Shown: positions 2,692 through 25,767 of the stretch, in pieces
Layout: each line of letters begins with the position of its first letter
Position numbering within the stretch: the stretch's first letter is position 1
Translations under genes and position numbers: made by a program
The notes under the pieces: generated by a model
What the model saw: the letters and a program-made list of their open reading frames with translations, nothing else
What the model was told of the DNA's origin: nothing
Databases searched by the model: none
Assembly: GCA_022759365.1 (NCBI GenBank)
Contig: JAEMPJ010000058.1
Location: 1 to 32,626, forward strand
Direction of reading: 5' to 3'
Length of the DNA stretch: 32,626 nt
Origin: Thermogladius sp.
GTDB taxonomy: Archaea; Thermoproteota; Thermoprotei_A; Sulfolobales; Desulfurococcaceae

Positions 2692-3015
2692 GTGATGGCT
2701 TTGAGCACTACTAGAATTACAGATGAGGATTTGAAGAAGGCTCTCCTGGAGAAGGAGAAGAAGCCTAGCGACGAGAAGCAGAGGTGGGTTCAGAAAATGA
2801 TTAAGAAGGCGAAGCAATACCACAAGATATGCCCCTATTTCGATAAGAGGACCAAAATGTGTTTCCTGACCCTGGGAACGAAGTGTGACAGAGAAGGGAA
2901 ATTCGATGTCTGCCCAATATTCAAGTCCTTCCTAGAGAAGAAGTACGACGAGTACAAGGCTAAGAACCAGCCTCTCCCACTCGACTTCACCGACGTTGTC
3001 GCCTCACCATTCTAA
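2692..3015 (+). CDS. Small conserved four-cysteine protein, function unknown
   Basis: I do not recognise a named family. The protein of about 107 residues is highly charged in its first half (many Lys/Glu, probably helical). A cysteine set follows with spacing C-x9-C-x7-C-x8-C, beginning KICPYFD and ending DVCPIFK, which suggests a bound metal such as zinc or an Fe-S cluster (inference). Start GTG 2692 or ATG 2695, consistent with a leaderless transcript from the A/T block upstream. Translation could begin further upstream in frame, but the added residues would lie in the promoter region and look non-coding. Only seven bases separate its stop from the DUF2283 gene, so they probably form an operon. 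Confidence 0.7.
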   Translation: MMALSTTRITDEDLKKALLEKEKKPSDEKQRWVQKMIKKAKQYHKICPYFDKRTKMCFLTLGTKCDREGKFDVCPIFKSFLEKKYDEYKAKNQPLPLDFTDVVASPF

Positions 3016-3021
3016 GAGCTG

Positions 3022-3252
3022 GTGGGCGGGTTGAGCGGGAGAGAGTTTCTGGTTAGAGACCTCGACAAGATGTGGTTTGAGTACGATAAGCAGAACGACA
3101 TCCTGTACATCAACTTCGGGGACTCAGCTGAGGAGGCTGACGAGGAGTTTCTAAGCGAGAACGGCGAGATAGCTTTCAGAATAAAGGATGGGCGCATCGT
3201 CTCGATCATGATTATAGGCTTCAGCTCTAAAGCGGGCATAACTGTAATCTAG
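3022..3252 (+). CDS. DUF2283 family protein
   Basis: A 76-residue protein. The pattern FEYDKQNDILYINFGDS, then a Glu/Asp-rich loop, then GEIAFRIKDGRIVSIMIIGFS, is the typical small beta-sheet DUF2283 fold: a YD...D.LYI.F strand pair and a G.IVGIEI-like strand. DUF2283 proteins have no established function and are often near small regulatory or toxin-like genes. Here the neighbour is the four-cysteine gene seven bases upstream. GTG at 3022 is taken as start; TTG at 3031, behind a GGTGGGCGG site, is an alternative that removes three residues. Confidence 0.75.
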   Translation: MGGLSGREFLVRDLDKMWFEYDKQNDILYINFGDSAEEADEEFLSENGEIAFRIKDGRIVSIMIIGFSSKAGITVI

Positions 3253-3253
3253 C

Positions 3254-3288
3254 CTTTCAACCACGTGCCTTCTTGATTGGTTAAAGGC
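3254..3288. terminator. Hairpin between convergent genes
   Basis: CCTTTCAACC at 3254-3263 can pair with GGTTAAAGG at 3280-3288, with one unpaired base and a 16-base loop. It lies just past the stop of the DUF2283 gene and before the stop of the converging gene at 3315. A two-way terminator or RNA-end structure is plausible; no strong T-run follows. Confidence 0.35.
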
Positions 3289-3314
3289 TGGAAGAGACCT
3301 CTAACAGTCCTGCT

Positions 3315-3809
3315 TCACTCGGAGTCTACGGTGTCAGCCGCCTCAGGTGGTTTCAGTTTTTCATCGAACACCACTTTCATCAACGAAAGCTTCTTCATCA
3401 CGAGGTTCATGTAGTCGATTATTATATTCCTGTTGAAACCCATCTTCTCGGCTCTATTCAAGACGATGTTCTCGACAACACTGTATTTCCCATATTTCTC
3501 GTTGAGGTCTTTCCATGGTATACCGGTCATAGCTTTAATGACATCGTTGTCTAATGGTAGGTAGCCTTTAACCATCATGAAGGCTATGATAGGGTAGCCT
3601 ATGTAACCCCTGAGGACAGTCCCGTTGTCATTGCTGAACACCCTGAAGGTGTTATCGCCCTCCTTGACTACTACGACAGTGTACTCTTTCTCCCCTCTAC
3701 TCGAAGTGATTTTCGCCATGTTATCATTCAGGACATGTATCCTCGAATCCCCGATGCTACCGGCGGCTTCAAGTATCTTAATTCGAGGAGGCTTAGACAG
3801 TATTTTCAA
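3315..3809 (-). CDS. Hypothetical protein, possibly crenarchaeal
   Basis: A 164-residue protein I do not recognise. The first half has alternating hydrophobic and charged residues, as in a beta-rich domain (EYTVVVVKEGDNTFRVFS). The middle has a hydrophobic stretch (GYPIIAFMMVKGYLPLD) that is too polar around its edges to be a clear membrane segment. The second half looks helical and contains the sequence IPWKDLNEKYGKY. There are no cysteines and no obvious catalytic motif. It follows the gene at 3825-4049 by 15 bases on the same strand, so the two are probably co-transcribed. Confidence 0.65.
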   Translation of the reverse strand: MKILSKPPRIKILEAAGSIGDSRIHVLNDNMAKITSSRGEKEYTVVVVKEGDNTFRVFSNDNGTVLRGYIGYPIIAFMMVKGYLPLDNDVIKAMTGIPWKDLNEKYGKYSVVENIVLNRAEKMGFNRNIIIDYMNLVMKKLSLMKVVFDEKLKPPEAADTVDSE

Positions 3810-3824
3810 CGCTTGTGAGTCACC

Positions 3825-4049
3825 TCAATCCATTTTGAGGACAAGGGGGGAATCAGATACCTTAGTAGCCTCCCCCTCAATTCTCTGCCCGATCCCGAGC
3901 CTAATTAATTCGTTGTACTTTTCCTCCGAGACCAGCAAAATAAACTCGGCTGGCTCTCCATCGACACTGCCATATACGTGTACTCTTCTTGTGTCCGGCG
4001 CGTCGAAAGAGACAATAACACCCTCAAACCTGGCTTTCATCCACCTCAA
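3825..4049 (-). CDS. Small hypothetical protein, beta-rich
   Basis: A 74-residue protein with alternating hydrophobic strands (ARFEGVIVSFD, RVHVYGSV, AEFILLVSEE, RIEGEATKV). The pattern resembles a small beta-barrel such as an OB-fold, but I cannot assign a family and make no functional claim. It is the promoter-proximal gene of a two-gene leftward unit with the 164-residue unknown. The 42-base gap before it contains an A/T-rich run (4077-4092) that could hold its TATA element. Confidence 0.6.
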   Translation of the reverse strand: MRWMKARFEGVIVSFDAPDTRRVHVYGSVDGEPAEFILLVSEEKYNELIRLGIGQRIEGEATKVSDSPLVLKMD

Positions 4050-5431: not shown

Positions 5432-6865
5432 TCACCCTGGTGCCAGACCCAGCTTCACCTTGCTTAATTTGACATCCGGGCCGCCGAACCACACTGGTAC
5501 TCCCTGACTCGGCTCTCCTTTACCGCAGGTTCCTGTGTAAAACCTCAGATCCCTAGACTTCGCCACTATACTGCTGTAGAAAGCCTTAGTGGTTATCTCG
5601 AGGACAGGATTCCTGACGAAACCCTTTATCTCCCCGTTCTCGATTAAGTATGCTTCCAGCCCCACGTACCTTTGGCTCCACCTCTCGTCGTCAATATTCC
5701 ACTCCATGTACGACTTAATGTAAACACCCAGCTTCACGTCTTCAATCAACTCTTCCAGAGAGTAGTCCCCGGGCGTGACGTATGTGTTGGACATCCTTAC
5801 AATGGGCTCGCTCGCGTAGTTCATAGCCCGCGCAGACCCGTTCGACTCAGTGTTGTACTCTGCGGCTGTGAACCTGTTGTGTAAGTGCTCGTAGACCACC
5901 CCCTCCCTGTACAAGTACTTTGGCCTAGCAGCAACGCCCTCGTCGTCGTAGAGGAAGAAGCCGTAGCTACCGGGTATTGTTGGGTCGTCTACTACTGTAG
6001 CGTTCTCGTTCCCAATCCTGAACCCCTTCATACCCTTCTTTATGAAGCTTAAACCCGCTTGAGCGGCCTCTCTCCCCAGGATCCTATCCGCCTCGCTTGG
6101 GTGCCCGGCTGACTCGTGTGCTATCAACCCGACTATCTCGCTACCGACTATAACGTCGAGAGGATCGCTCGGCGGGGTTTTGCCCTCTAAGAGGGCTCTT
6201 TCTAGCACCCCGGCCTCGCTGGACACGACGTCGGGTAGCCTCCAAGACTCAACCAGCTCGTAGCCCCCGCTACCCCCGTGCTCTTGCCACCTCTGGACCA
6301 CGCCTTTCTGCGGGTGGGCTATCACCATGTTGTACCCCAAGTACACTCTTGGGATGAAACTCCTAACGTAGGCCCCCTCGCTCGTCATTATTATTTTTTC
6401 TTCAGCGCTCTCCTCGTATTCGTTGAACATCACTTTCACAGATGCCTCTTTCACAGCCTCCCTGCTCCTCCTCCAGAGCTCGTTGAACAGGCTTATTTTC
6501 TCGTCTATTGGCACGCTATCAAAGCTTTTCTTGACGGAGACGCTGTAGCTTACATGCCCGACTCTACCCGGCCCTAGCTCCAGGGGCTTCTTCATAAATC
6601 TGCTGAGGCTCCTAGCGGTCTCCACGGCTCTCCTAGCCGTCTCGAGGACGCTCTCGCTGTCCAGCCTATTCGTTGAGGCGAAGCCTAAAGCACCGTCAAC
6701 AAGGACTCTCACGCTGATACCCTCAGCTATTTCCTCCGCGGAGTCTATTAGGTTCCCGTTCCTTGCTCTAAGAGTGAAGTAGGTATTCCTATGATACCTG
6801 GCCTCGACGTATTTCGCGCCCTTGGAGGAGGCTTCGGCTATCGCCTTCTCGAGGAGGTCTTCCAA
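5432..6865 (-). CDS. tldD: TldD zinc metalloprotease
   Basis: Catalytic subunit of the TldD/TldE complex. The zinc motif HESAGH is at residues 250-255 (LIAHESAGHPSEADRI), and the C-terminal TCGKGEPSQGVPVWFGGP segment supplies the conserved cysteine region near the metal. The SYGFFLYDDEGV region, which binds substrate backbone in the family, is present. Length (477 aa) is normal. The start is TTG at 6865 with AAGGTG about seven bases upstream. It is the first gene of the tldD-pmbA operon and shares an A/T-rich divergent promoter region with the gene at 6936. Confidence 0.92.
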   Translation of the reverse strand: MEDLLEKAIAEASSKGAKYVEARYHRNTYFTLRARNGNLIDSAEEIAEGISVRVLVDGALGFASTNRLDSESVLETARRAVETARSLSRFMKKPLELGPGRVGHVSYSVSVKKSFDSVPIDEKISLFNELWRRSREAVKEASVKVMFNEYEESAEEKIIMTSEGAYVRSFIPRVYLGYNMVIAHPQKGVVQRWQEHGGSGGYELVESWRLPDVVSSEAGVLERALLEGKTPPSDPLDVIVGSEIVGLIAHESAGHPSEADRILGREAAQAGLSFIKKGMKGFRIGNENATVVDDPTIPGSYGFFLYDDEGVAARPKYLYREGVVYEHLHNRFTAAEYNTESNGSARAMNYASEPIVRMSNTYVTPGDYSLEELIEDVKLGVYIKSYMEWNIDDERWSQRYVGLEAYLIENGEIKGFVRNPVLEITTKAFYSSIVAKSRDLRFYTGTCGKGEPSQGVPVWFGGPDVKLSKVKLGLAPG

Positions 6866-6900
6866 TAAAATACACCTTGTAAATATTAAAAACTACGCTG

Positions 6901-6912
6901 TAAATAAATTTA
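6901..6912 (+). promoter_or_regulatory. TATA box for the gene at 6936
   Basis: TAAATAAATTTA ends 24 bases before the ATG at 6936, so the transcript would be leaderless or nearly so. A second A/T block (about 6880-6893) is better placed to serve the leftward tldD operon. Confidence 0.5.
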
Positions 6913-6935
6913 GTTATGTTGGCGTGGTTGGGACG

Positions 6936-7745
6936 ATGGCTACTGAAAATGTCCAGGAATACACGTTGAGTACGGGTATAATTATAGCGGGTGCATACGC
7001 GGATAAAATCCGGAAGACGCTTTTTGCACAGCTTAGAGATTTAACGAAGAATAATAGAGATATGGCTAGAGAGGCGGCTAGAGCTTCCGCAGAGCTGAAT
7101 AGGTTGCTCTACTATCTGATCGTGGACGAGCTCAAGAGCGATAAGGGGGATGCTGTTAGGGTAAGAATAAAGTACAGGGTATACCCCGATAAAAACTACA
7201 TCGAGTGGGATTACAACAGCCTTGTCGTAGAATACTTCAAGAGGCTCAGCGACGAGGAGGTGAGCAAGTCTCTGAGGAAAGTGTTGAATGAGAGGTTGAA
7301 GGAGGTTCAAGAAGCGTTCGGCAAAAAACCGCCCGCCCCACAACAGCCTCAGACGGGCGAGACTGCGGGGGCCGGGCCGTCCAAGGGTGAAGAGGTGAAA
7401 GAGACCCCGGCTCCGCCGGCGGAGTCGGCTGGTTTCACCATAGGCGGGCTCTCGGAGATGGGCGAGACATCCCTGGGCACTATCTTGCTTAAAATTGAGG
7501 ATCCAAAGGGGGAGTCGCTGGGTGTAGTTGAACTAAGCGAGAGGGAAGGGAAAGTTGTAGGTGAAGCCCTAGTAGTCTACGGTGGTGAAGGATACAGAGC
7601 GTTAATATCCCTGGAGGGAAGTGTCGAGAAAGCCCTAGAGAATAAAGACCTTATAATAGAGGAGTTGAGGAAGGCGAGGTTCGTCAAGATAAGCAAGCAG
7701 GACGCGGAGAACTTTATCAGGGAAAAAATGAACATGATCTCCTAG
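6936..7745 (+). CDS. Archaeal conserved protein, probably DUF2258 family
   Basis: A 269-residue protein. The N-terminal part (LSTGIIIAGAYADKIRKTLFAQLRDL) resembles what I remember of the uncharacterised archaeal DUF2258 family; this is recognition, not a search result. It continues as a helical, Lys/Arg/Glu-rich domain to about residue 125. A low-complexity Pro/Gly/Glu linker follows (about 130-165), then a second alpha/beta domain. The linker separates two folded parts. ATG at 6936 is preferred because the TATA box lies 24 bases upstream; reading further upstream enters the tldD promoter and gene. The stop overlaps the converging DHH gene by four bases. Confidence 0.7.
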   Translation: MATENVQEYTLSTGIIIAGAYADKIRKTLFAQLRDLTKNNRDMAREAARASAELNRLLYYLIVDELKSDKGDAVRVRIKYRVYPDKNYIEWDYNSLVVEYFKRLSDEEVSKSLRKVLNERLKEVQEAFGKKPPAPQQPQTGETAGAGPSKGEEVKETPAPPAESAGFTIGGLSEMGETSLGTILLKIEDPKGESLGVVELSEREGKVVGEALVVYGGEGYRALISLEGSVEKALENKDLIIEELRKARFVKISKQDAENFIREKMNMIS

Positions 7746-8710
7746 GCTCTAAGGTACTCCCTGTAGCTGGAATTAATTTTTTCGACGAACTTATCGAAAA
7801 CTTCAATGCTGACCCTTGCCCCAGCAGCAAACGGGTGCCCGCCTCCCTGTATATCGAGCTCCCTGCTTATCCTCCTGATCAGTTTGTTTAAGTCCACTTT
7901 ATCGCTCCTCAAACTCATCACGAGCATCCTCCCCCTTGTCTCGAAGGCAAGCCCTATCAACCCGCCCCCGTAAATCCTAGCGTAGTTTGCCGCTCTCCCC
8001 ACACTTCCCGGGGGGTTCTCCACTATTGATACAACGCCTTTATTGTACACTGTCCTCTTCACGCTCAACCTAAGGTCTTCGTCCAGCATACTCTGCTTAA
8101 CCGCCCTAGAGGCGAGATCGCCTATAGAGCTCGGGAGGGTGTTGGAGCTGAGGGCGTTTAGGACTTCTCTCTTGAAATCGTATTGTCTTCCAGCATGCTC
8201 AAGCCCCTGGACTAGCACACCAGCCTCATAGTAAACAAACCTCTTATCCCACCTCGCCAATTGGTCTCTCACCCAGGGGGTTTCATCGATGTAGTCGGCT
8301 ATAGCGCCGTAGAGGCCGATCCTAGAGTAGTCTGGGTCGAGGTGTTTCTCAACATACTTGAAGACAAGCTCTGAGGCGGAGCAACACGTGTCATGTATAA
8401 ACTCCACGTTCCCCGGTTGCCTGAAATCCTCTGGGAGAGGGTGGTGGTCTATGTAGACAACCTTCCCTTCTGAACCGCGTTTCTCCAATATCTCCAGTAC
8501 CTGCTTGTAGGTCTTCTCATCTAGAGCTATATCCGCTATGTAAATATCGTCTCCTTGCCTCGTGAACTCCTCGAGGTCTTTCGCCAGCCCCGCCGGGTTT
8601 GTGAAGTATACTGCGACATCCCCTTTCCTCCCAAGGTATGCTTTCAATAAAGCACCGCTGCAGACGCCGTCGCTATCTCCGTGGACGAGGAGTTTGATCA
8701 GGTAAACCAC
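7742..8710 (-). CDS. DHH family phosphoesterase
   Basis: Manganese-dependent phosphoesterase of the DHH superfamily (RecJ nucleases, nano-RNases and polyphosphatases). Motif I is HGDSDGVCSGAL (residues 10-21), motif II an Asp in YIADIAL, motif III the signature DHH at 88-90 (VYIDHHPLP), and motif IV HDTCCSASEL. The C-terminal substrate-binding DHHA1 domain ends with GGGHPFAAGARV. All catalytic residues look intact. At 322 residues it is shorter than RecJ and fits oligonucleotide or dinucleotide hydrolases; the substrate is not decidable by reading. The start is GTG at 8710. A different DHH protein is at 21337-22353. Confidence 0.85.
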   Translation of the reverse strand: MVYLIKLLVHGDSDGVCSGALLKAYLGRKGDVAVYFTNPAGLAKDLEEFTRQGDDIYIADIALDEKTYKQVLEILEKRGSEGKVVYIDHHPLPEDFRQPGNVEFIHDTCCSASELVFKYVEKHLDPDYSRIGLYGAIADYIDETPWVRDQLARWDKRFVYYEAGVLVQGLEHAGRQYDFKREVLNALSSNTLPSSIGDLASRAVKQSMLDEDLRLSVKRTVYNKGVVSIVENPPGSVGRAANYARIYGGGLIGLAFETRGRMLVMSLRSDKVDLNKLIRRISRELDIQGGGHPFAAGARVSIEVFDKFVEKINSSYREYLRA

Positions 8711-8863
8711 CTTAGAGGGGCTATGCGTCAGCCCCGCGCGGATACTTCACTGCTCAGACCTGCCACGTTTCTTCATCCTACGGTGATTATAGTTTCCTCC
8801 GCGCCTATTAACCTAATCCACTTGCTTAAATAATCACCAAAGGCTATTCCTGGAAGGGTGTTG

Positions 8864-9874
8864 ATGCCAAGCGGTATAGATGTCGGCAAAGCCCCGGAGG
8901 ACATATTAAGTCTCCCCAACGAGGATATAGTCAACGAGTTTCTAGCAGTCCTGGAGGCCTCCGGCGCAAGCCAGGATACTATTAAGGCCTACAAGTCAGC
9001 CTTGTACGATTTCATCTCATTTCTCAAAGGGAAACCACTAAGGGAGGTAACTCTAAGGGATGTGGTGGCGTGGAGGAATGAGAGGCTGAAGAACGGGTTT
9101 AATGGGAAGAAGACGGAGAGCAAGGACTCGTGGCTGGCGACCCTGCACTATTATACGATTTTCCTGAAGAAGTTCTTCAAGTGGCTCGGCTTGAATCTGT
9201 CGGTGCCCTCTGTTAAGAAACCCGCTAGGAAGATCGAGGCTCTAAGCGATGAGGAGGTGAGTAGACTCCTTGCGGCTGCTACCAGGGTTGAGGAGAAGAT
9301 CATATTGAAGCTACTCTTAGATACTGGTCTTAGAAGCAGAGAGCTCCTCTCCCTCAGGGTCTCGGACATAAACTTCGATGAGAAGGTGATAAGGGTTAGG
9401 GAGGCTAAGTACGGGAGAGAGCGGTACGTGACTGCGACGCAAGAGACCTTCGAGATGATCAAGGCGTATATTAAACTACTGAACTTAAAACCAGAAGACA
9501 AGCTCTTCAACCTCACGTACTCCGGCCTATACAAGATGCTGAAGAAGCTGGCCCGGAGAGCTGGTTTAAACGAAGACAGGGTTAGGCCGCATGTCCTGAG
9601 GCACACTTTCGCGACGAGAGCGCTCAGGATGGGTTTAAGCCTCCCCACCCTGCAGAGGATTCTCGGGCACAGCGATATCAAGACAACACAGGTCTACCTG
9701 CACCTGACAGTCGAGGATCTAAAGAAGGAGTACGCCTCGAAATTCGACGCGGCGGGTAGGGCTTCAAAGTACTGTGTTAGGTGCGGGAGGCCTATACCAG
9801 CAGACGCGTTGTACTGCCCCTACTGCGGGGCTAGGCAGACCATCAGCGAGGGGGCAACAGCCTCAACAGCATGA
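8864..9874 (+). CDS. xerA: XerA-type tyrosine recombinase with C-terminal zinc ribbon
   Basis: Site-specific recombinase expected to resolve chromosome dimers at dif. An N-terminal SAM-like core-binding domain (about residues 20-110) precedes the catalytic domain with the complete set: Arg157 (TGLRSREL), Lys182 (EAKYGRER), His243/Arg246 (HVLRHTF), His269 (LGHSDI) and nucleophile Tyr278 (QVYLH). After the catalytic domain comes a zinc ribbon, CVRCG at 304-308 and CPYCG at 318-322, which is not part of a standard XerA/XerD. ATG at 8864 is chosen for the GGAAGG site six bases upstream; GTG 8858 and TTG 8861 are possible. A TATA-like TTAAATAA lies near 8825. No dif-like palindrome was seen nearby. 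Confidence 0.88.
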
Positions 9875-9877
9875 GGT

Positions 9878-10339
9878 TTAAACGTACTCGTCTAGGAGCC
9901 TGGCCACGAGAAGCTTGACCACGGTATGGTACTCGGGGTTTCTCTTCCTATACTCGTTTACAAGGCTCTCGCCATCGGGTGTAGGGTACTCGTCTCGGTA
10001 GTTTGCAAGAGCAGCCTCAAGCTCATCGGTAAACGAGATTACTGCAACGTCGTTGACGGGTATCCTCCACTTCTCCTCACTGTATTTCACTTGTAGGAGA
10101 GCCTTCAAGTAGTCTTCATCGCTCTTAGGCTGGCTTAATTCAACCCGGTAGTAAGGTGTTATGAAGTGTACAACCGCATAACCGTGTGTAGTGTTATCCT
10201 TTAGTATTTTCAACGTGGTGACCTCGCTCTCATCCGCCAGCACAGTCGAAGGCGCTTCCTCAACATTGAAGCCGCCCTTCTTGAAATCCTCTATGAGCTT
10301 ATCCACATCTTTGACGACGATTCTCAGGACTTTCACCAA
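9878..10339 (-). CDS. Hypothetical protein
   Basis: A 153-residue protein I do not recognise. It starts with a short beta-alpha-beta pattern (LRIVVKDVDKLIEDFKKGGFNVEEAP), then has a beta-rich central part (ITPYYRVELSQ) and a helical C-terminus (YHTVVKLLVARLLDEYV). It has no cysteines, membrane segments or catalytic motifs. It converges on xerA with a three-base gap and is divergent from the M28 peptidase-like gene, with which it shares a TTTTAATTA box. The start is TTG at 10339 or GTG at 10336. Confidence 0.65.
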   Translation of the reverse strand: MVKVLRIVVKDVDKLIEDFKKGGFNVEEAPSTVLADESEVTTLKILKDNTTHGYAVVHFITPYYRVELSQPKSDEDYLKALLQVKYSEEKWRIPVNDVAVISFTDELEAALANYRDEYPTPDGESLVNEYRKRNPEYHTVVKLLVARLLDEYV

Positions 10340-16666: not shown

Positions 16667-17596
16667 TTGAAGTTCAGGTTCGGGCCAGCCGGTAAACCCA
16701 TTTCTTTAAAGTCAGCCGACATCTTGAAGGCACCGGGGTTTCTGAGGGAGCTAGGTTTAGACGCGATGGAGTATGAGGCGGTCAGGGGTGTAAACATAAG
16801 CGAGGAGAAGGCGAGGGCATTCGGCGAGGAGGCGTCGAGGAATAACATCGTGTTAAGCCTTCACGCGCCCTACTTCATCAATTTATCCAGTAAGAACCCG
16901 CAGACGGTTGAGGCAAGCATTGAGAGGTTGAAGCAGAGCGTGCTGGCCTCCCACTGGATGGGAGCCTACGTTGTAGTATTCCACCCGGGCTACTACAAGG
17001 ATATGCCTAGCCGCGAGGAAGCTGTGGCGGCTGTAGTAGGGAACCTTAAGGCTGTTGCCGAGTACAGGGATTCGATCGGCGCCAGGAACGTCTGGCTTGG
17101 GCCCGAGACGACGGGTAGGACGTCGCAGGTTGGTGACCTAGATGAGACCATAGAGATATCCAGCAAAGTGGAGGGAACAAGGCCTGTGGTGGATTGGGCA
17201 CACCTCCACGCCAGATATGAGGGGAAGTTCATCGTTTCTGAGGAAGATGTAAGGGCTGTAGTGGAGAAGATTGAGAAGAATCTGGGGAGCTGGGCTCTCA
17301 AGCCCCTCCACATGCACTTCTCCAAGATAGAGTACGGGAAGGGTGGGGAGAGGGAGCACCATACACTAGGGGAGGCAGAGTACGGGCCCGACTTCAAGCT
17401 TGTGTGTAGTGTCCTAACAGAGATGGGTGTGGAAGGCGTTTTTATAAGCGAGAGCCCTATCCTAGAACAAGACGCTTTAGTGATGAGGGATATTTGTTCT
17501 AAGACGTGTGGTGAAAAATGTGCTGGCGAGGCTGAGGAGAAGGCTGAAAAGAAGAGTGGAGGAGCTAGGAGGAAGACTAGGAGAGCTAGGGGTTAA
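16667..17596 (+). CDS. nfo: Endonuclease IV (AP endonuclease, Nfo family)
   Basis: Cuts DNA 5' of abasic sites in base-excision repair. The TIM-barrel metal-site motifs occur in order: SLHAPYFINL, VVFHPGYY, GPETTGRTSQVGDLDE, VVDWAHLHAR, HMHFSKIEYG with GEREHH, and a late SESPILEQDA. Length is 309 aa, about 25 more than usual. The extra C-terminal tail (from about 281) is rich in Lys, Arg, Glu and Ala and has three cysteines (SKTCGEKCAGE). That tail is encoded in DNA that also encodes the start of the next gene in another frame. The start is TTG at 16667 after GGTGTCG. Confidence 0.92.
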   Translation: MKFRFGPAGKPISLKSADILKAPGFLRELGLDAMEYEAVRGVNISEEKARAFGEEASRNNIVLSLHAPYFINLSSKNPQTVEASIERLKQSVLASHWMGAYVVVFHPGYYKDMPSREEAVAAVVGNLKAVAEYRDSIGARNVWLGPETTGRTSQVGDLDETIEISSKVEGTRPVVDWAHLHARYEGKFIVSEEDVRAVVEKIEKNLGSWALKPLHMHFSKIEYGKGGEREHHTLGEAEYGPDFKLVCSVLTEMGVEGVFISESPILEQDALVMRDICSKTCGEKCAGEAEEKAEKKSGGARRKTRRARG

Positions 17597-18107
17597 ACCC
17601 GTACATTTGACGGTAACAGGCCTATTCCTATCAGTGCTCGCTTTTCTCTCATCAATGAAAAACTCGCCCCTCTACTACACGGTATTCCTAGCTCTCTCAG
17701 GCTTAATGGACATGCTGGACGGCCCTGTGGCTAGAGCTACTGGGAAAGCAAGCCCGCTCGGCGCCTTCCTAGACTCGTTCCTGGACAGGGTTTCCGACGC
17801 CCTCCTAATAGTCTCACTCGTGAACTTCGGGTTGGACTGGTGGTTGGTCACCTCACTTCTAGTGGCATCATTGCTGACAAGCTATTCGAGGGCTAGAGCA
17901 GAGTCCCTCGGGGTCTCACTCGAGGGTGTTGGGCTGGTGGAGAGAAGTGAAAGGATGATCCTGCTGGCGGCTACAGCGGTTCTGCTAGCAGTAAACTTCA
18001 CCGTAGGCTTCGCTATGTTTATCCTATTCCTAGCTCTGTCTGTTGAGACGGTTGCGCACAGGTTTATCTACGTGGTGCTTGCTTTAAGGGGTTCAAAGCC
18101 TCGATAA
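17520..18107 (+). CDS. CDP-alcohol phosphatidyltransferase (archaetidyl-phosphate synthase-like)
   Basis: Integral membrane enzyme that transfers a lipid phosphate from a CDP-lipid to an alcohol, probably making archaetidyl-inositol or -glycerol phosphate. The signature DGx2ARx8Gx3Dx3D is complete (DGPVARATGKASPLGAFLDSFLD). The motif is flanked by about six hydrophobic segments in 195 residues. The N-terminus is a Leu/Arg amphipathic helix (LARLRRRLKRRVEELGGRLGELGV) characteristic of the family, so an early start is needed even though it lies within nfo. GTG at 17520 has GGTGA five bases upstream; GTG at 17508 is an alternative. The stop overlaps the converging herA by 15 bases. Confidence 0.85.
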   Translation: MLARLRRRLKRRVEELGGRLGELGVKPVHLTVTGLFLSVLAFLSSMKNSPLYYTVFLALSGLMDMLDGPVARATGKASPLGAFLDSFLDRVSDALLIVSLVNFGLDWWLVTSLLVASLLTSYSRARAESLGVSLEGVGLVERSERMILLAATAVLLAVNFTVGFAMFILFLALSVETVAHRFIYVVLALRGSKPR

Positions 18108-20102
18108 GTCGTAGTGCCCCGTTATCGGGAGAGGCGTCTTGAAGGACACGTAGCCGAGTCTAAGGACGTGGCTCTTTAAGACGCCCACTCTATCCCCACA
18201 CCTTGTGACAAAATCTTTGTACTCGCCGGGTATGTCCAGTGCTGACACGTGTGTTTTATCCATGCGGAGGACTATTTTGGTGTTGGTCAACTGTAGTATT
18301 ATATCGTGGACGTCCGCCGGGCTGTGGGTGCTGAAGACTAAGCCGAGCCCCCTGCTACGTCCAAGCCTCGCAATCCTGTCTATCATCCCGCTGACATGTT
18401 CAATGAAATCCTCTGAGCCTCCACCCTTCGAGGGGAAGAACCTGTGGGCTTCATCAACGAATATCATCACGGGCTGCGTCTTAACCTTCTCCCTGCTCTT
18501 AGTCAGCTTCCACTCGAAGACCTTATTCAAGATCCTATAGGCCACTATACCGATAACCTTCTCTGGATCCGCCGGCGAATACTCTTGGAGGAAGTCCAGG
18601 TCGACGACTATAGGTAGGCTCGAGAAAACGCTACCATGCTTCTCAAGTATCTCCGGGATAGGTGCCTCAACGAGGAACCCGCCGGTTTCCCCTATGCTGA
18701 TGTCGAAGACACCCGTGTCTATTAGCGAGCCGAGCTGCCTCAGGATGTTCTCCAGAGTACTCTTGTGTACAGCAAGCTCCTCAACTACTTCTACAAGACC
18801 CCTCCACTTCCCCGTGGCAGCCGTCTTGTGTTCAAGGTAGTATCTAGCGGCTGCCAGCATGTCGTAGAGGTCGACTATCGTCTTAACCTGGTTGCCGAGA
18901 TCCGCTAGCCTCTTGAGTAGTCTAGATAGGGTGTCCTTAGCCTGCCTCGTGAAGTACGGGTTTAAAGCGACGAATTCCTTCGGCGCGAAGTCGCTGAACC
19001 TGAAGCTGTATGGTATAATGTAGAGGGTGAAAGAGTCCTCCTCCGGGTATTTAAGTGTCAGCACCAGCTTCACGAACCTTAGAGGAGACCTTCCGGGCTC
19101 TTCGTGTACGACCAGCTCTTTAATACTCCAGCCCCAGCTGAACCTCTCGAATAACGGTGCATAAGTGTCTGAGACATACATCTCGCTGATCTCCTTCAAC
19201 GCCTTAGCCCACGTCTCGGAGCCTTTAGCGTACGACTCCGCTACGAGGGTTGTGACAGGTAGAACTACGACCAGCCCCTTCGGCCTACTCGCTTTCATTG
19301 AGAAGAATTCGGAGAGCTTTCTATCCTGCGAGGCCGTATCCTCGGGGAACACGGGTTTCAAGGGGAGTGTAACGTAGTCTTTATTCGGGTCTAAGATGAT
19401 GATCGTCGGCTCCTCTAGGTTTGGAGTGTTGAAACGGCTGTAGATAGATGCTATCATGTTCTTTAAAAGAGTTGTCTTACCGCTACCGGTTGTGCCTAAA
19501 ACGAGCATGTGCTGGTAGAAAGCGTTCACGGGGAGGAATAATGGTACCTGGGCATCAAATATCGGCCTATCCCCGGAGGTCACGAAGCCGAGGAAGACTC
19601 CGCTGGTGGGGAGGCCCAGCATGTACTGGGCTGTCTCAGCATCCCTTGGTTTTATAACAGGGCTCTGGGGCTCCACAACGTAGTTAGCGATGCTGACAGA
19701 CCTAGTGTCGGGGTCATATGATAGAAGCGGCTTCGCCCTCACACGGGTCTTGGTCAGCAGGCCAGTTACCTCCGGTGATTGCGAGGGCAGGTATGCTTCG
19801 GGGAGCGAGAGCTCGGCTAGGATATCCCTCCTCTCCACGGATACCACTCTGAGGCTTATCACATGGCCCGTCTTCAAGTCAACTACAGCAAGGTAGTTCC
19901 CCGCTGATGCTATGTCGGCGAACTTGTCGAAGTATATTAGGGGATCAACATCGAATACTACAACGCCCCCCTCCTCGTCGATAAGGGAGGGGCTTGTCCT
20001 GGAAACGTAGCCTATTACATCGCCTAGTTTGGCAGCGGTTTCATAGGCCTTGCTGGCCTTTAAGCTCAGCTCTTTAATAATCTTCTCGCTCATTAGACGC
20101 AT
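18093..20102 (-). CDS. herA: HerA family DNA translocase ATPase
   Basis: Hexameric bipolar DNA helicase/translocase that works with NurA (and Mre11-Rad50) in resecting DNA ends. An N-terminal HAS-barrel region (about residues 25-130) precedes the P-loop GTTGSGKT at 203-210. Walker B is MIFVDEAH (Asp550/Glu551), followed by an arginine-finger candidate in RLGRSRGLGL and the sensor FSTHSPADVHDIILQLTNTKIV. At 669 residues it is longer than typical HerA (about 500-600); the extra length lies between Walker A and B (about 250-500). It follows nurA by 21 bases, a nurA-herA operon. The start is ATG at 20102 or ATG at 20093. Confidence 0.88.
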   Translation of the reverse strand: MRLMSEKIIKELSLKASKAYETAAKLGDVIGYVSRTSPSLIDEEGGVVVFDVDPLIYFDKFADIASAGNYLAVVDLKTGHVISLRVVSVERRDILAELSLPEAYLPSQSPEVTGLLTKTRVRAKPLLSYDPDTRSVSIANYVVEPQSPVIKPRDAETAQYMLGLPTSGVFLGFVTSGDRPIFDAQVPLFLPVNAFYQHMLVLGTTGSGKTTLLKNMIASIYSRFNTPNLEEPTIIILDPNKDYVTLPLKPVFPEDTASQDRKLSEFFSMKASRPKGLVVVLPVTTLVAESYAKGSETWAKALKEISEMYVSDTYAPLFERFSWGWSIKELVVHEEPGRSPLRFVKLVLTLKYPEEDSFTLYIIPYSFRFSDFAPKEFVALNPYFTRQAKDTLSRLLKRLADLGNQVKTIVDLYDMLAAARYYLEHKTAATGKWRGLVEVVEELAVHKSTLENILRQLGSLIDTGVFDISIGETGGFLVEAPIPEILEKHGSVFSSLPIVVDLDFLQEYSPADPEKVIGIVAYRILNKVFEWKLTKSREKVKTQPVMIFVDEAHRFFPSKGGGSEDFIEHVSGMIDRIARLGRSRGLGLVFSTHSPADVHDIILQLTNTKIVLRMDKTHVSALDIPGEYKDFVTRCGDRVGVLKSHVLRLGYVSFKTPLPITGHYDLSRL

Positions 20103-20123: not shown

Positions 20124-21254
20124 CTATAGGGTTAAATACTGTAGGGTGGACTCCCGCGTAGCCCCTACCGCAAGGACTATTTGCCTCGTGATAGCCTCGC
20201 TCAGCTTTTTAACTCTTTGGTCAGCTAGGAGGATGCTCACCGGTAGGCTCGTCCCAGAGCATATTGAGTCGAAGATCACAGGCTGGAGATCCTCGAGGCT
20301 GTTCCTATACCCGATTTCCTCAACCCTGTAGAAAGTGAATGACCCTAAGCCACCCCCGGTTAGACGTCTCGGTATACTGAGATACCACATGGTTCTCTCC
20401 ACGCTGGTGCCGTTGAACCCGCTGGAGACGTGTAGAGGGCCGATTACAATGGGTTTGGTAGGCTTTCCGCGGAAGATTCTCTCGGTTAATATGGAAAGGT
20501 ATGCCTGGTCGCTCACGTTGGTGACGCCGAGGTTGAAGGGGTCGTCTCGGGAGAGGATATGCGTGTACTGCAACCTTTTAACAACCCCGTAGACCCTGCT
20601 AGACGAGTTGATCTTCTCAACTATACTCAGGCGCCTCTTCATCAATATCTCCCAGTTCTCCTTGTAGACGTTTATCAACTTGCTACTACCTCTAGCCTCG
20701 GTAACCGGGTGTGAGGGTAGGAACAACGGCCCGTCCAAGAGCACTACCTCACCCCACCCCAACACCTCGCTGAGGATCATGTTCTCTAGGTTGACCCGAT
20801 GCTCCTCCAGAGCAAGCGCTTTATTATAGCCCGGCGGGTAAGGCCTCGAGGAAGGATCCTTGTACTCGACGCCTAGCTCATCTAGGACTCGGTGGTTGAA
20901 AGGCTCCACCTCAGGTATGACCAGTATGTATTTGTTATCCCTGTGGGAGAGCAGGGAGGAAGGTGATGGGATATCGTATGCTCTTAAACCAACCCTGCTG
21001 ACGCCTGTAGCGGTTGCTACCGCTATGAACATGTAGGGGGTGTCAATAACCCGGCTACTACTGTCCACCCCCACAGTACTCCTAACTGGTATCCCCCGGC
21101 ATATGGTAGCGTCCAGCTCGGTGACCTCCAGGGAGGCTTCCTTGATCCTGGCGGACTCGCCTTGGACGGCGAACTCTCTTGACTCCTCGACTCTCACGAT
21201 CCTAGTCGCGTTCCTCCCGATCTCCTGGAGCTTGCTGAATATGTCTGCCGCCAA
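20124..21254 (-). CDS. nurA: NurA 5'-3' nuclease
   Basis: Manganese-dependent exonuclease that acts with HerA at DNA ends. The NurA pattern is visible: TVGVDSSSRVID with catalytic Asp64, an acidic helix near residues 149-158, VLLDGPLFLPS with Asp174, and a C-terminal SDQAYLSI region. Adjacent herA confirms the assignment. The start is TTG at 21254. It is divergent from the second DHH gene, and the pair share an 80-base promoter region. Confidence 0.88.
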   Translation of the reverse strand: MAADIFSKLQEIGRNATRIVRVEESREFAVQGESARIKEASLEVTELDATICRGIPVRSTVGVDSSSRVIDTPYMFIAVATATGVSRVGLRAYDIPSPSSLLSHRDNKYILVIPEVEPFNHRVLDELGVEYKDPSSRPYPPGYNKALALEEHRVNLENMILSEVLGWGEVVLLDGPLFLPSHPVTEARGSSKLINVYKENWEILMKRRLSIVEKINSSSRVYGVVKRLQYTHILSRDDPFNLGVTNVSDQAYLSILTERIFRGKPTKPIVIGPLHVSSGFNGTSVERTMWYLSIPRRLTGGGLGSFTFYRVEEIGYRNSLEDLQPVIFDSICSGTSLPVSILLADQRVKKLSEAITRQIVLAVGATRESTLQYLTL

Positions 21255-21281
21255 AGGGGTTGACCTGTTTATAGGTTCATC

Positions 21282-21290
21282 TTTAAAAAT
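21282..21290. promoter_or_regulatory. Divergent promoter element between nurA and the DHH operon
   Basis: TTTAAAAAT contains the symmetric TTTAAA. It is about 28-35 bases from the leftward nurA start (21254) and about 30-50 bases from the rightward starts (TTG 21319 or ATG 21337). A second A/T block, TGTTTATAGG at 21267-21276, may also serve the leftward operon. Confidence 0.45.
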
Positions 21291-21336
21291 CGTTATAATA
21301 CAATACTAAAGGCAAGACTTGTTTACGGGTCTAGCC

Positions 21337-22353
21337 ATGGATAAGCCGAAGAGAGTTCTAGTGGCAGGTGACTGGGATGCAGATGGCGTAGTTTCCTCGG
21401 CTATAATAGTGTACACCCAGGAGAAGCTGTCCGAGTACCCGTTGAAGAACGTAAGTATAGTGGAGAAAAAACCGGCGGATCCCGACAGGATAAGGTACAT
21501 CATAAACAGCATATCTGTGCCCTACAACTTGGTGGTATTCCTCGACCTACCCTACGCCCCATTTATCGGGAACGTGATAAGGATGTTGAAACAGCATTTC
21601 GGAGTAGAGAAAATAATGTATGTTGACCACCACTTGTCAACCCTCCAGCATGAAGACGAGTTAAGGAAGATAGTCGACATCCTGATCGTAGACTACAGGA
21701 AGCCCACCGTGGGGTTAATAATGGACGAGCTGGCTAAAAACGGCGTTAGGGTTCACAAGCGGTTGGAGAGCTTTGCTACAGCCGTCGAGTACATGGATGC
21801 GGGCAGGAGGGTTCCACCAGAGTACATGAAGATATTCGAGTTAACAAAGCTGATGTCAAAGGCGCTTACAGCAGTTAGAGATGAGGGCCTCTGGACTAAA
21901 ATAGTCGACTGGCTAGCCGACCCCACCCCACTACCCATGCCTTTAGACGAGCAGGTCATGTCGAAGGTCAGAGAGGTTGTTGAGAAGAGGGATAACGAGT
22001 TGAAGGAGACAGCTATGTCCCTAGCTTTAGAGGCTGTTAAAGTAGGGGATCTAAGGTTCGTCGATGCCAGGAAGAAATGGAAGAAGAGGGGGGCCACAGC
22101 GCTGGCGTCTAAACTGGCAGGAATACTGAAAGCACCTGTAGCGCTCCTTGTGGACACCCATAAGAATCACAGCCTACTCGTGATAAAGGCCTCGAGGGGG
22201 AGGGCATATAGGATCGCGAAATACCTTGTAGGCGAGGGGATAGCCTACGACATAGCAGGCCACCCGAACCTTGCCATTGTGAGAGTTGAAAAAGACGTAG
22301 ACAAGAAGATCATCTTGGACGCCCTCCAACAAGCCTTATTCTACACTTCGTGA
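21337..22353 (+). CDS. DHH family phosphoesterase (second copy type, near nurA-herA)
   Basis: Manganese-dependent phosphoesterase related to RecJ. It has motif I GDWDADG (Asp12, 14, 16), motif II VVFLDLPY (Asp70) and the DHH signature at 97-99 (MYVDHHLS). A motif IV-like VDYRKPTVGLIMDEL follows. The C-terminal domain is weakly DHHA1-like, with IAGHPN instead of the usual GGH. Only loosely similar to the DHH protein at 7742-8710, so not a recent duplicate. The DWDADG form is shared by RecJ-type nucleases; archaeal GAN/RecJ relatives act at the replication fork and in repair. ATG at 21337 gives a compact N-terminus (MDKPKRVLVAG); TTG 21319 is possible. First gene of a tight four-gene set. Confidence 0.82.
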   Translation: MDKPKRVLVAGDWDADGVVSSAIIVYTQEKLSEYPLKNVSIVEKKPADPDRIRYIINSISVPYNLVVFLDLPYAPFIGNVIRMLKQHFGVEKIMYVDHHLSTLQHEDELRKIVDILIVDYRKPTVGLIMDELAKNGVRVHKRLESFATAVEYMDAGRRVPPEYMKIFELTKLMSKALTAVRDEGLWTKIVDWLADPTPLPMPLDEQVMSKVREVVEKRDNELKETAMSLALEAVKVGDLRFVDARKKWKKRGATALASKLAGILKAPVALLVDTHKNHSLLVIKASRGRAYRIAKYLVGEGIAYDIAGHPNLAIVRVEKDVDKKIILDALQQALFYTS

Positions 22354-22360
22354 AGCGCGA

Positions 22361-22369
22361 AAAATTTAA
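22361..22369 (+). promoter_or_regulatory. TATA-like box before the deacetylase gene
   Basis: AAAATTTAA lies about 40 bases before the preferred TTG start at 22407, directly after the stop of the DHH gene. It could be an internal promoter of the operon. Confidence 0.35.
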
Positions 22370-22406
22370 CTCTAGGACACACGATCTTCTTTCAGGGCGG
22401 TTGTTT

Positions 22407-23438
22407 TTGGTTGAAGTGGTTATCCAGGAGAACTCTAGTTTAAAACACAAGCCCTGGTTCAACCACCCCGAGAACCCTGAGAGAGTGAGGGTGCTAGCTG
22501 CGACCCTAGCCCGGATGGGGTTCGTGAAATACGGGTTCACGAGGGTTGAACCGGGTTTAGACGAGTCTATCCGCGTGGCGGGGTTAATCCACAGCAGGGA
22601 TTACATTGAGAGAATGCTCGAGGACTCGAAGAAGGGCCGGGTTCTATTAGACGAGGACACTTACATTTCGAGTGACAGCGTGGAGCTCGCGCTCGAAGCT
22701 TTATACCTCTCCTACAAAACGGCTTTAGAGGCCAGCGGTATCCGCTTCCTCGTAATCCGCCCCCCAGGGCACCACGCTGGGAGGAGGGGTAGGACTAGGG
22801 GTGTCTCAAGCAATGGGTTTTGCTTATTCAACAACGCTGCCGCAGCGGTAGTCGGCTTCAGGGAGAGGGGTTTTAAAAGAATCGGTATCCTGGACTTCGA
22901 CGTCCACCATGGTAATGGTACCATGGAGATCTTCTACAGGGAGGGCATTCTTCAAATAGACCTGCACCAACACCCCGATACGCTGTATCCACACACAGGC
23001 TACCCCGATGAGATCGGGGAGGGAGAGGGGTTTGGCCTGAAAGTCAACATGGTCTTCCAGCCTTACACAGGCGACGACTCCTATATGCGGGCACTCGACT
23101 ACGCTGAGAACATTATCGAGGAGTATAACCCGGACTCGCTTGTAGTCTCAGCGGGCTTCGACGGCTTCAGCGGAGACGGGTTGGCAGACCTCAACTTGAC
23201 AGAGGCATCCTACTACAGGCTCGGCTCTCTCATCAGAGAAGCGGGGGTGCCAACCGTCATTGTCCTGGAGGGCGGGTACTCCAGGGGCCTTGAGAACGGG
23301 TTCAAAGCCTTCCTGGAAGGGTTGGCCGGCGTGGCGAGAAGGTACCCCCAAACAACCTCGTCAAGGAATATATCGAGGTTGAACGAGATGGTTAACAGGG
23401 CTGTTTACGAGCATGCGTTGAAGAGGTTTGGGCGTTGA
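22407..23438 (+). CDS. Histone deacetylase / acetylpolyamine amidohydrolase family protein
   Basis: Zinc-dependent deacetylase of the HDAC/AcuC/acetylpolyamine amidohydrolase superfamily. Motifs are in order: NHPENPERVRVL near the start, RPPGHHAG with the catalytic His-His pair, NGFCLFNNAAAA, DFDVHHGNGT (zinc Asp and His), SAGFDGFSGD (second zinc Asp) and EGGYSRGL with the transition-state Tyr. All catalytic residues are intact. Substrate unknown: acetyl-lysine on chromatin proteins such as Alba, or acetylpolyamines, are both plausible. TTG at 22407 is chosen for the GGGCGG site six bases upstream; GTG at 22350 overlaps the previous stop but adds a poorly hydrophobic leader. The stop overlaps the CYTH gene by four bases. 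Confidence 0.88.
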   Translation: MVEVVIQENSSLKHKPWFNHPENPERVRVLAATLARMGFVKYGFTRVEPGLDESIRVAGLIHSRDYIERMLEDSKKGRVLLDEDTYISSDSVELALEALYLSYKTALEASGIRFLVIRPPGHHAGRRGRTRGVSSNGFCLFNNAAAAVVGFRERGFKRIGILDFDVHHGNGTMEIFYREGILQIDLHQHPDTLYPHTGYPDEIGEGEGFGLKVNMVFQPYTGDDSYMRALDYAENIIEEYNPDSLVVSAGFDGFSGDGLADLNLTEASYYRLGSLIREAGVPTVIVLEGGYSRGLENGFKAFLEGLAGVARRYPQTTSSRNISRLNEMVNRAVYEHALKRFGR

Positions 23439-23971
23439 TTGAGAGAGAGGTTAAAATTAGAGTCCGAGGGGACAGTGGATCAGTCGTTGAATGGTTTAAG
23501 AGCAAGGGGTTTACACCAGCTGACTCGTGCTACGAGGAAGACCGCTATTTCACACATCCGTGCCGCGACCTGCGTTCAACAGATGAGGCTCTAAGGCTTA
23601 GGTTCAGGAGATGTGATAGCGGGGCCGGATATTATTTAACCTACAAGGGCCCCCGCCTAACTGAGGGCGTGGTGAAATCCAGGCTCGAGATAGAGGCAGA
23701 GCTGAGCAGTGAGCAGGGAGAGGTCATTGGGGAGATACTGAAGAGGATGGGCTTCGACGAGAAATTTGTTGTGAGGAAGAAGAGGGTTATCATGAAGGGT
23801 AGCGGCTTAAACGTCACTATCGATGATGTCGAGGGCTTAGGCTTGTTCGTGGAAATTGAGGGCGAGATACCGGGTTGGCTTACTAAGATGGTTGAAGGGG
23901 CTAGCTGGTTTAACGGATATGTGGAGAAAACTTATTTGGAGCTACTCATTGAGGGAAACAAGGTGTCTTGA
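23435..23971 (+). CDS. CYTH domain protein (class IV adenylate cyclase / triphosphatase type)
   Basis: Triphosphate tunnel enzyme. The signature ExExK appears at the very start (EREVKI), followed by basic and acidic tunnel residues on successive strands: DEALRLRFRR, YYLTYKGPR, KSRLEIEAEL, FVVRKKRVIM, NVTIDDVEGLGLFVEIEGE. The order is that of CyaB-like proteins. Archaeal members hydrolyse tri- or polyphosphate compounds or may make cAMP; the sequence does not decide. The TTG start overlaps the deacetylase stop and the stop is one base before the Cas4-like start, so it is inside an operon. Confidence 0.88.
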   Translation: MIEREVKIRVRGDSGSVVEWFKSKGFTPADSCYEEDRYFTHPCRDLRSTDEALRLRFRRCDSGAGYYLTYKGPRLTEGVVKSRLEIEAELSSEQGEVIGEILKRMGFDEKFVVRKKRVIMKGSGLNVTIDDVEGLGLFVEIEGEIPGWLTKMVEGASWFNGYVEKTYLELLIEGNKVS

Positions 23972-23972
23972 A

Positions 23973-24629
23973 GTGTCAGAGCAAGGTGGCGACTCAATTC
24001 TCTCCGTTTCTGGAGGGAGGATTCTGCAGATCTTATACAAGAAGTTTATGAGCGAGCAGACAAGTAGGTTGAGCGAGCTAGCGGATCCATCCGTAGTCTA
24101 TGTAACCGACCTCGTCTCATGCCACCACAAATACCACTTGAGGAAACTATACCCGGAGCTCTCCATAAGCTTCGAGCCGTCCGCTGTAATGGGTAACCTG
24201 GTTCACGCGGGTGTGGAGAGTATTATAGTGGAGTACGGCTTCAAGCCTGAGTTCCAGCTTGAGAAACACATCGAATTGGATGGGAGAGTCTACGTGTTGA
24301 AGGGGCGCGTTGACGCCTTCAACCCTGAAACAAGGGAGGTTCTCGAGATAAAGTCTGTTAAAAACTTCCAGGGGGAGCCCTACGAGCACCATGTTCATCA
24401 GTTAAACATCTACCTTAACCTCCTAGACTCCCCGAAAGGCTACCTTCTCTACATATCACACGATAAAATATTTGAGTACACTGTACGCCCATCCCCTATC
24501 GACGTGGAGGGGGAGCTGGCTAGTCTACTACGCGACGAGAGACACCCGAGGTATGCTTGGGAGTGCCGTTACTGTCCTTTCAGGAAGATATGCCCGTATA
24601 GAAGGGCGGAGAGCGGCTCGGAAAGCTAG
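23973..24629 (+). CDS. Cas4-like RecB-family nuclease with predicted [4Fe-4S] cluster
   Basis: A 218-residue PD-(D/E)XK nuclease of the Cas4/RecB type. Active-site candidates are His78 (LVHAGVES), Asp114 (GRVDAF), Glu126 and Lys128 (VLEIKSVKN) and the Gln-Tyr motif (HQLNIYL). Four cysteines in Cas4 spacing, Cys50 (LVSCHHKY) and Cys198/201/207 (CRYCPFRKICPYR), should hold an Fe-S cluster. No cas1, cas2 or CRISPR repeats are in the window, so a stand-alone DNA-repair type is likely, though distant CRISPR loci cannot be excluded. GTG at 23973 has AGGTG seven bases upstream. It is the last gene of the DHH-deacetylase-CYTH set. Confidence 0.85.
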   Translation: MSEQGGDSILSVSGGRILQILYKKFMSEQTSRLSELADPSVVYVTDLVSCHHKYHLRKLYPELSISFEPSAVMGNLVHAGVESIIVEYGFKPEFQLEKHIELDGRVYVLKGRVDAFNPETREVLEIKSVKNFQGEPYEHHVHQLNIYLNLLDSPKGYLLYISHDKIFEYTVRPSPIDVEGELASLLRDERHPRYAWECRYCPFRKICPYRRAESGSES

Positions 24630-24954: not shown

Positions 24955-25767
24955 CTAGCGGCCTAATCGGGCGGGTTTCAGTATAACCTCGTCGTCGAGG
25001 CTGAGGTTTAACTCGCGGGAAGCATCACCTTTATTAACTCCCAGCTCGAGGTACTCGAAGCTACTCTCGTAGCATGCTAAACCGCCCTCCTCCACTAGGC
25101 TGAAGCTGGTCGTGAGCCTGCACTCCTTCGAGGTGCTCCCCGCCTCCACCACTAGTGTATCTCCAATCCTCCAGCCAAGCTCCGAGACAAGGGTCATGGG
25201 TATGTTTGTCAGCAGGTTCCCGTATACATCGATGTATATAACCCTGGCTTTCACAGCACCACCTTCCACAACAGGCCTAGGTATGTCTATGACCTGGATG
25301 CTACCAGGCTCTACTCTAACCCCTAGCTCGCCGAGGGGTACACCTAGGCTGGCGTATGCGGCTACGGGGGCGAAGACGTCTCTCCCGTGGAATGTGCCCG
25401 AGACCTTCTCGAGCCTGTACTTTGAGCCACCGATATCGTATACTTCCTGAATGCCGTCCTCTAGTGCTAGGAGGGAGAGTAGACCGTTGTCAGGCCCGAC
25501 GAGAATGTAGTTGCGTGTCTTGATCAGGATGGCCCTCCTACTACTCCCAACCCCTGGGTCAACGATTGCGAGAAAGACAGTGCCTTTCGGGAAGTACTTC
25601 GCGGAGGACTTTAATATTAAAGCCCCCTCTCTCACGTTGTGCCTCCCGACACCGTGGGTTAAGTCGATTATTTCAGCCCTGGGGTTGATGCTCTTGATGA
25701 CGCCTTTAATCACTCCAACGTATGGATCCTTGTAGCCGTAGTCTGTCAGCAGAACTATTAGGCTCAT
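24955..25767 (-). CDS. SAM hydroxide adenosyltransferase (DUF62 family)
   Basis: Hydrolyses S-adenosylmethionine to adenosine and methionine, a family related to fluorinase and chlorinase. Motifs run LLTDYGYKDPYVGV with the substrate-binding Asp, TVFLAIVDPGVGSSRRAI, LVGPDNGLLS, GTFHGRDVFAPVAAY and the C-terminal IYIDVYGNLLTNI. These fit the hydroxide adenosyltransferases: TFHGRD and GNLLTNI are typical and there is no chlorinase/fluorinase loop. ATG at 25767 is chosen since GAGGG lies about six bases upstream and the family begins IVLLTDYG. A longer reading to 25905 adds 46 residues, Arg-rich and unlike the family. The gene stands alone. Confidence 0.9.
   Translation of the reverse strand: MSLIVLLTDYGYKDPYVGVIKGVIKSINPRAEIIDLTHGVGRHNVREGALILKSSAKYFPKGTVFLAIVDPGVGSSRRAILIKTRNYILVGPDNGLLSLLALEDGIQEVYDIGGSKYRLEKVSGTFHGRDVFAPVAAYASLGVPLGELGVRVEPGSIQVIDIPRPVVEGGAVKARVIYIDVYGNLLTNIPMTLVSELGWRIGDTLVVEAGSTSKECRLTTSFSLVEEGGLACYESSFEYLELGVNKGDASRELNLSLDDEVILKPARLGR

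Follow-up and report, generated by a model that had tools for sequence, protein, structure and literature searches.

The subject of the present work is a block of genes on a stretch of DNA of 32,626 nucleotides from Thermogladius sp. (contig JAEMPJ010000058.1 of assembly GCA_022759365.1, referred to here in its full length as the window), in which a leftward pair encoding the NurA nuclease and the HerA-type ATPase diverges from four closely packed rightward genes, whose products are a DHH phosphoesterase, an HDAC-family deacetylase, a CYTH-family enzyme and a Cas4-like nuclease. This block of enzymes of known kinds is a real neighbourhood at the level of the family Desulfurococcaceae, is vertically inherited and is specific to that family; no earlier description of its gene order was found in the open-access literature. 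The reading preferred here, to which a probability of about one half is assigned, is that the two inherited units are built around a core of HerA-NurA DNA-end processing that is independent of Mre11-Rad50, with accessory nucleases. The window is the whole of one contig in a 64-contig assembly of 1.15 Mb (1148 kb) with a completeness of 99.5%, and the family names Desulfurococcaceae (f1) and Sulfolobaceae (f9) were assigned provisionally from the closest named relatives (Thermogladius metagenome-assembled genomes) together with gene content.

The evidence that the block is more than an accident of one genome comes from a comparison of neighbourhoods in 20 relatives from 12 genera of the same family, in which each adjacent pair of genes was scored by the number of genera in which it is linked out of those in which it could be evaluated. 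The order EndoIV-AIPS-HerA-NurA|DHH-HDAC-CYTH-Cas4, where AIPS is archaetidylinositol phosphate synthase and the bar marks the divergence, is kept in nearly all scorable genera. Linkage is as high on the left side (EndoIV-AIPS 8/8, AIPS-HerA 8/9) as it is in the core, where it reaches 10/10 for HerA-NurA, 10/12 for NurA-DHH, 10/11 for DHH-HDAC and 9/9 for both HDAC-CYTH and CYTH-Cas4, and past Cas4 it declines from one pair to the next, from 5/7 for Cas4 and the S-adenosylmethionine (SAM) hydrolase to 3/6, 3/8, 2/6 and 1/4. Because linkage is high inside the block and falls beyond Cas4, the block is real and has its right edge after that gene, and the linkage of its pairs exceeds chance when it is set against this decay. 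The four rightward genes are also under purifying selection, with ratios of nonsynonymous to synonymous substitution (dN/dS) of 0.07, 0.15, 0.16 and 0.18 relative to a 94%-identical relative. The preliminary description of this DNA had taken a scattering of these genes in related genomes as evidence against its reading; their order is conserved in most genera of Desulfurococcaceae, and they are scattered in the complete genomes checked in other families and in one genus (g9) of the family itself.

All six open reading frames lie where that description had placed them (Table 1), and the four rightward genes are as tightly arranged as it had claimed, with gaps of 53, -4 and 1 bp, the negative value being a 4-bp overlap of HDAC and CYTH. 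This spacing is compatible with a single transcript, and the four genes are probably co-transcribed. The divergence through one short region was likewise borne out: the NurA|DHH spacer measures 82 bp from the NurA TTG at 21254 to the DHH ATG at 21337 (64 bp if a TTG at 21319 is used), and its TATA-like TTTAAAA is invariant in the four aligned Thermogladius sequences. The block is predicted to comprise two divergent transcription units that share this 82-bp promoter region. The internal promoter suggested for the DHH-HDAC gap did not hold up, because the A/T-rich AAAAATTTA is not kept in two of the four Thermogladius sequences; a scan for sigma-70-type promoters is uninformative here, the host being an archaeon.

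Table 1. Features of the block and of its conserved left neighbours (positions in the window)
Feature	Position	Strand	Remarks
EndoIV-like TIM-barrel protein	16667..17596	+	nfo TIGR00587 73 bits, under cut-off 129.65; conserved left neighbour
Archaetidylinositol phosphate synthase (AIPS)	17508..18107	+	conserved left neighbour; tail-to-tail with herA
HerA-type ATPase, 669 aa, of a Mre11/Rad50-free pair	18093..20102	-	Pfam DUF87/HerA_C; DUF87 E 5e-13
NurA nuclease, 376 aa, partner of window HerA	20124..21254	-	Pfam NurA 39.8 bits, above cut-off; TTG start 21254
Divergent intergenic region, 82 bp	21255..21336	.	TATA-like TTTAAAA 21282-21288
DHH-DHHA1 phosphoesterase, 338 aa	21337..22353	+	ATG start 21337; Pfam DHH E 2e-4, DHHA1 E 7e-3
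DHH-HDAC gap, 53 bp	22354..22406	.	holds A/T-rich AAAAATTTA
HDAC-family zinc deacetylase, 343 aa	22407..23438	+	TTG start; Hist_deacetyl E 1e-62
CYTH triphosphate tunnel metalloenzyme, 178 aa, SaTTM/PH1819-like	23435..23971	+	CYTH E 1e-23
Solo-Cas4, SSO0001 type, 218 aa	23973..24629	+	GTG start; Cas4 TIGR00372 70 bits, above cut-off; PDB 4ic1 E 2e-35

The identities of the proteins alter the preliminary reading. The window HerA, with its Walker motifs, adjoins a NurA with Asp/DG motifs, and no mre11 or rad50 gene lies in the window. An mre11-nurA-herA-rad50 operon is present elsewhere in the same genome (contig G000:C19), so the HerA-NurA pair of the window is a second, paralogous pair and not the Mre11-Rad50 pair; an mre11-rad50-nurA-herA operon also occurs in four other genomes of the family (G080, G081, G082 and G062). 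The NurA of the C19 operon is recognized by its motifs and its operon position, its profile scores being weak, and a profile comparison of it with window-type and canonical NurA gave nothing significant. In the mre11-rad50 operon of Thermogladius (L142), the gene at the nurA position (2621-3928) is too divergent for Pfam and takes its identity from motifs and position. The window pair resembles that of the mre11-rad50-herA-nurA operon of thermophilic archaea, for which 5'-3' end resection is presumed, but it is unlinked to mre11-rad50, divergently placed, and has DHH, HDAC, CYTH and solo-Cas4 as its neighbours. A pair of the window type is also present in family f3 (L153), where in addition PHP and NurA genes are close together.

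The DHH protein retains its catalytic motifs (DWDADG, D70, DHH and GH), and across 37 members of its family D12, D14, D16, D70, D97-H98-H99 and G308-H309 are invariant, with motif I taking the form D-W-D-x-D-G. Its AlphaFold2 model (mean predicted local distance difference test score, pLDDT, 92.9) has the DHH-DHHA1 fold and matches structures of RecJ, archaeal RecJ-Cdc45 and PAP phosphatase, with Foldseek values of E 8.5e-13 for RecJ (5f55) and template modelling (TM) scores of 0.60/0.64 for PAP phosphatase (8a8k). It thus shares the fold, motifs I-III and GH with RecJ, GAN, Cdc45 and the NrnA-type phosphoesterases, but it is a single unit of 338 aa with very low sequence similarity to any of them, and its family differs from the RecJ type in that the Asp of motif IV is often Glu and GGGH is shortened to GH or GGH. 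A RecJ-like exonuclease acting on single-stranded DNA and an NrnA-like oligonucleotide phosphatase are about equally likely activities. The window encodes a second DHH-DHHA1 protein (7742-8710), which has the full GGGH motif and whose gene is convergent with that of a ThermoDBP-related protein of single-stranded DNA-binding type (6822-7745; PF10015 E 6e-27).

An assignment of the block's DHH protein as the Cdc45/RecJ subunit (GAN, arCOG00427/00432) of the CMG (Cdc45-MCM-GINS) complex was considered and rejected. A separate inactive homologue is present in the same genome (G000:C13:7507-8181), and it is to this protein that an S15/Pcc1/S3Ae context pertains; the order S15-Pcc1-S3Ae is the known setting of the CMG-subunit RecJ/Cdc45 (Makarova et al., PMC3307487). 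Two loci in other genomes (L107 and L109) have a different, inactivated protein of 427-428 aa after S15, which in L109 is followed by Pcc1 and S3Ae. Around S15 in the genome of the window itself no RecJ was found; the gene directly after S15 there encodes a 305-aa protein with no Pfam family (L094, 10217-11134), at the position at which other families have the inactive RecJ/Cdc45.

The PD-(D/E)xK motif and the four Fe-S cysteines of the Cas4 protein are intact (GRVDA at 111, EIK at 125, Cys 50, 198, 201 and 207), and no cas1 or cas2 was recognized among the open reading frames of the window, so it does not qualify as a CAS-Cas4. Judged by motifs and context it is a solo-Cas4 in the sense of PMC5704561; the SSO0001-type Cas4 is a nuclease of solved structure (PDB 4ic1; PMC5704561). 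It resembles the Sulfolobales solo-Cas4 (SSO0001) over the full length of the protein, including the four cysteines and the catalytic motif, and differs from that type in being part of a DHH-HDAC-CYTH unit beside HerA-NurA. In-frame stops were flagged in six Cas4 matches; in the two that were inspected, the alignment had run past a normal stop at the C terminus.

The CYTH protein carries the motifs EREVK (ExExK, 3-7), ALRLR (small-x-R-x-R, 52-56) and EIE (ExE, 140-142), with no HF upstream of the first. By the criteria that separate triphosphatases from class IV cyclases (PMC8233210), these motifs identify it as a triphosphatase, an activity that is predicted. It shares ExExK, small-x-R-x-R and ExE with the triphosphatase SaTTM (Saci_0718; E 1e-18; PMC8233210), from which it differs only in genomic context. 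A class IV adenylate cyclase (CyaB) was rejected, because the HF of HFxxxxExExK is absent and the second Glu of ExE is intact; the NCBIfam cyaB match is misleading. The catalytic residues of the HDAC are complete (GHHAG 121, DFDVHH 163, AGFD 249 and GGY 289). Among proteins of solved structure it is closest to HDAC6 and acetylpolyamine amidohydrolases, and its gatekeeper Leu is aligned with that of HDAC6 domain 2, a position which we take to separate HDAC6 (Leu) from the polyamine deacetylase HDAC10 (Glu). It is probably a deacetylase acting on proteins or small molecules.

Three genera (g12, g13 and g4; L037, L038, L041, L042, L047) have a Nudix hydrolase gene between CYTH and Cas4 that overlaps or abuts both neighbours, and two small membrane proteins of no recognized family are encoded between NurA and DHH, co-directional with DHH, in several genera (L038 8205-9494, L037, L052 and L048). 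In the window, a non-coding stretch of 325 bp separates the block, at its right edge, from the gene for a SAM hydrolase/SAM hydroxide adenosyltransferase (24955-25767).

The analysis establishes gene content, intact motifs, order, purifying selection and paralogy, and co-transcription, enzyme activities and cooperation are inferred. The proposal of end processing follows the precedent of Deinococcus radiodurans, in which RecJ, HerA and NurA interact functionally and an additional domain at the C terminus of RecJ mediates its binding to HerA (PMC4663267); the short DHH protein of the window does not have that domain. The window pair, designated HerA2 and NurA2, would process ends without Mre11-Rad50, HerA2 pumping a DNA end into NurA2 so that 3' single-stranded tails are left. 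The solo-Cas4, as an exonuclease, and the DHH phosphoesterase might then trim the single strands and short oligonucleotides so produced, or recycle them, and CYTH, as an inorganic triphosphatase, could clear nucleotide by-products, joined by the Nudix enzyme in the three genera that have it. HDAC would be co-transcribed and is given no part in the module. The shared end processing or repair suggested in the preliminary description thus has a precedent in the link between a DHH protein and HerA, while the presence of an EndoIV-type gene and of AIPS in the block means that this is not a pure repair set. A stronger version, in which HerA2-NurA2 cooperates with solo-Cas4 and with a DHH exonuclease as a second Mre11-Rad50-independent machine of the Desulfurococcaceae that is tuned by the deacetylase, is considered improbable.

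Several observations weigh against functional cooperation and are accommodated by positional conservation, that is, by a housekeeping cluster which is held together in a small genome by slow rearrangement and shared transcription and which has no common pathway beyond HerA-NurA. AIPS, an unrelated lipid synthase, and the EndoIV-like gene are kept as tightly as the nucleases. Within the family, genus g9 (G071, G072) has DHH, HDAC, Cas4 and NurA on different contigs, in genus g2 AIPS immediately precedes DHH, HerA-NurA is missing from that place and the other four genes are kept, and insertions of unrelated genes for ATP synthase subunits and membrane proteins break up the set in several genera (in g10, ATP synthase subunit genes lie between DHH and HDAC). 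In other families the block genes are mostly scattered in the complete genomes that were checked, with DHH usually not close to the others in the neighbourhoods that were read; the labels DHH and DHH2 are interchangeable in these neighbourhoods, the iterated profiles having merged. A search of 214 genomes of the order at E <= 0.001 placed DHH in 137, Cas4 in 137, HDAC in 174 and NurA in 193, and the presence of DHH is uncorrelated with that of Cas4 (phi -0.03, at stricter cut-offs from the same tables), with family f3 having DHH and no strong Cas4 match and families f7 and f9 having Cas4 and no DHH. The genes persist without one another in other lineages, and the link between them is partial. 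Positional conservation does not readily explain the sharp edge at Cas4, as opposed to the decay to its right, nor the fact that NurA-Cas4, NurA-DHH and DHH-HDAC proximity recurs in other families. At one locus of f6 (L065), NurA-HerA, then DHH, then Cas4 and HDAC all lie within 11 kb; in f10 (L053-L055) NurA is within a few genes of DHH, as is HerA in L055; HDAC is divergent from DHH in L070; genomes of f8 (L122, L124) have a Cas4-PHP-NurA run; and the Sulfolobaceae have a solo-Cas4 about 5 kb from the HDAC gene within an otherwise different gene set. These partial recurrences keep a functional link alive without proving it, and positional conservation is held to be a serious possibility, at slightly more than one chance in three. 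The f8 run itself (L122 about 7000-9900, L124 about 7300-10100) comprises a ribbon-helix-helix protein, a 108-aa protein, solo-Cas4, a PHP phosphoesterase and NurA, and is divergent from a large Lhr-like helicase; the DHH gene of the f10 loci is adjoined by genes for a ThiF/MoeB-like E1-type enzyme and a HEPN-like 135-aa protein.

Two further explanations assign the block a different function. It might be a defence-type module, in which a HerA-NurA pair coevolved with type III CRISPR and the solo-Cas4 jointly counter mobile DNA or take part in spacer acquisition, as is suggested by the extra, CRISPR-linked nurA-csm6-herA cluster of Pyrobaculum (PMC3396285), by a Cas4 above the cut-off of a cas4 model, and by the PADLOC models that best match the window proteins. 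For HerA this is PDLC01055 ("HerA, Type III coevolved"), at 159 bits, where the HerA from the mre11-rad50 operon of this genome scores 53.6 bits and the remaining HerAs that were tested score 54-80 bits; for NurA it is the type III-coevolved PDLC01056, at 25.8 bits, which matches only window-type NurA and, marginally, one NurA of f8. The window block, however, differs from the Pyrobaculum cluster in that its surroundings hold no csm6, no CRISPR array and no cas genes for adaptation, and no cas1, cas2, effector or type III genes were recognized among the open reading frames of the window. Simple repeat and motif scans of 924 of the 1148 kb (81%) found neither a CRISPR array nor a convincing large open reading frame with a Cas10-like GGDD, so a CRISPR role is unsupported here; and the vertical, family-wide retention of the block at low dN/dS is unlike that of patchy defence islands. 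A defence function is for these reasons quite unlikely. The alternative that end processing is controlled by protein acetylation through HDAC and by a nucleotide signal from CYTH appeals to the tight packing of these two genes with Cas4 and DHH and to the intact HDAC active site with its HDAC6-like gatekeeper. The nucleotide signalling envisaged in the preliminary description is not supported by the motifs of CYTH, which are those of a triphosphatase, and most genomes of the order have HDAC, as a rule away from the other block genes, so that such control is given very little weight.

For the reading of archaeal genomes, these results imply that a crenarchaeal "nurA-herA" need not represent the recombination pair, and that archaeal CYTH proteins can be labelled "adenylate cyclase" in error. 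If the joint machine described above were real, it would give archaeal solo-Cas4 a cellular job. The conservation across the family of a block with a second HerA-NurA pair beside a solo-Cas4 and a DHH enzyme of intact motifs makes both a role of solo-Cas4 outside CRISPR and the job of the extra HerA-NurA pairs testable with six defined proteins.

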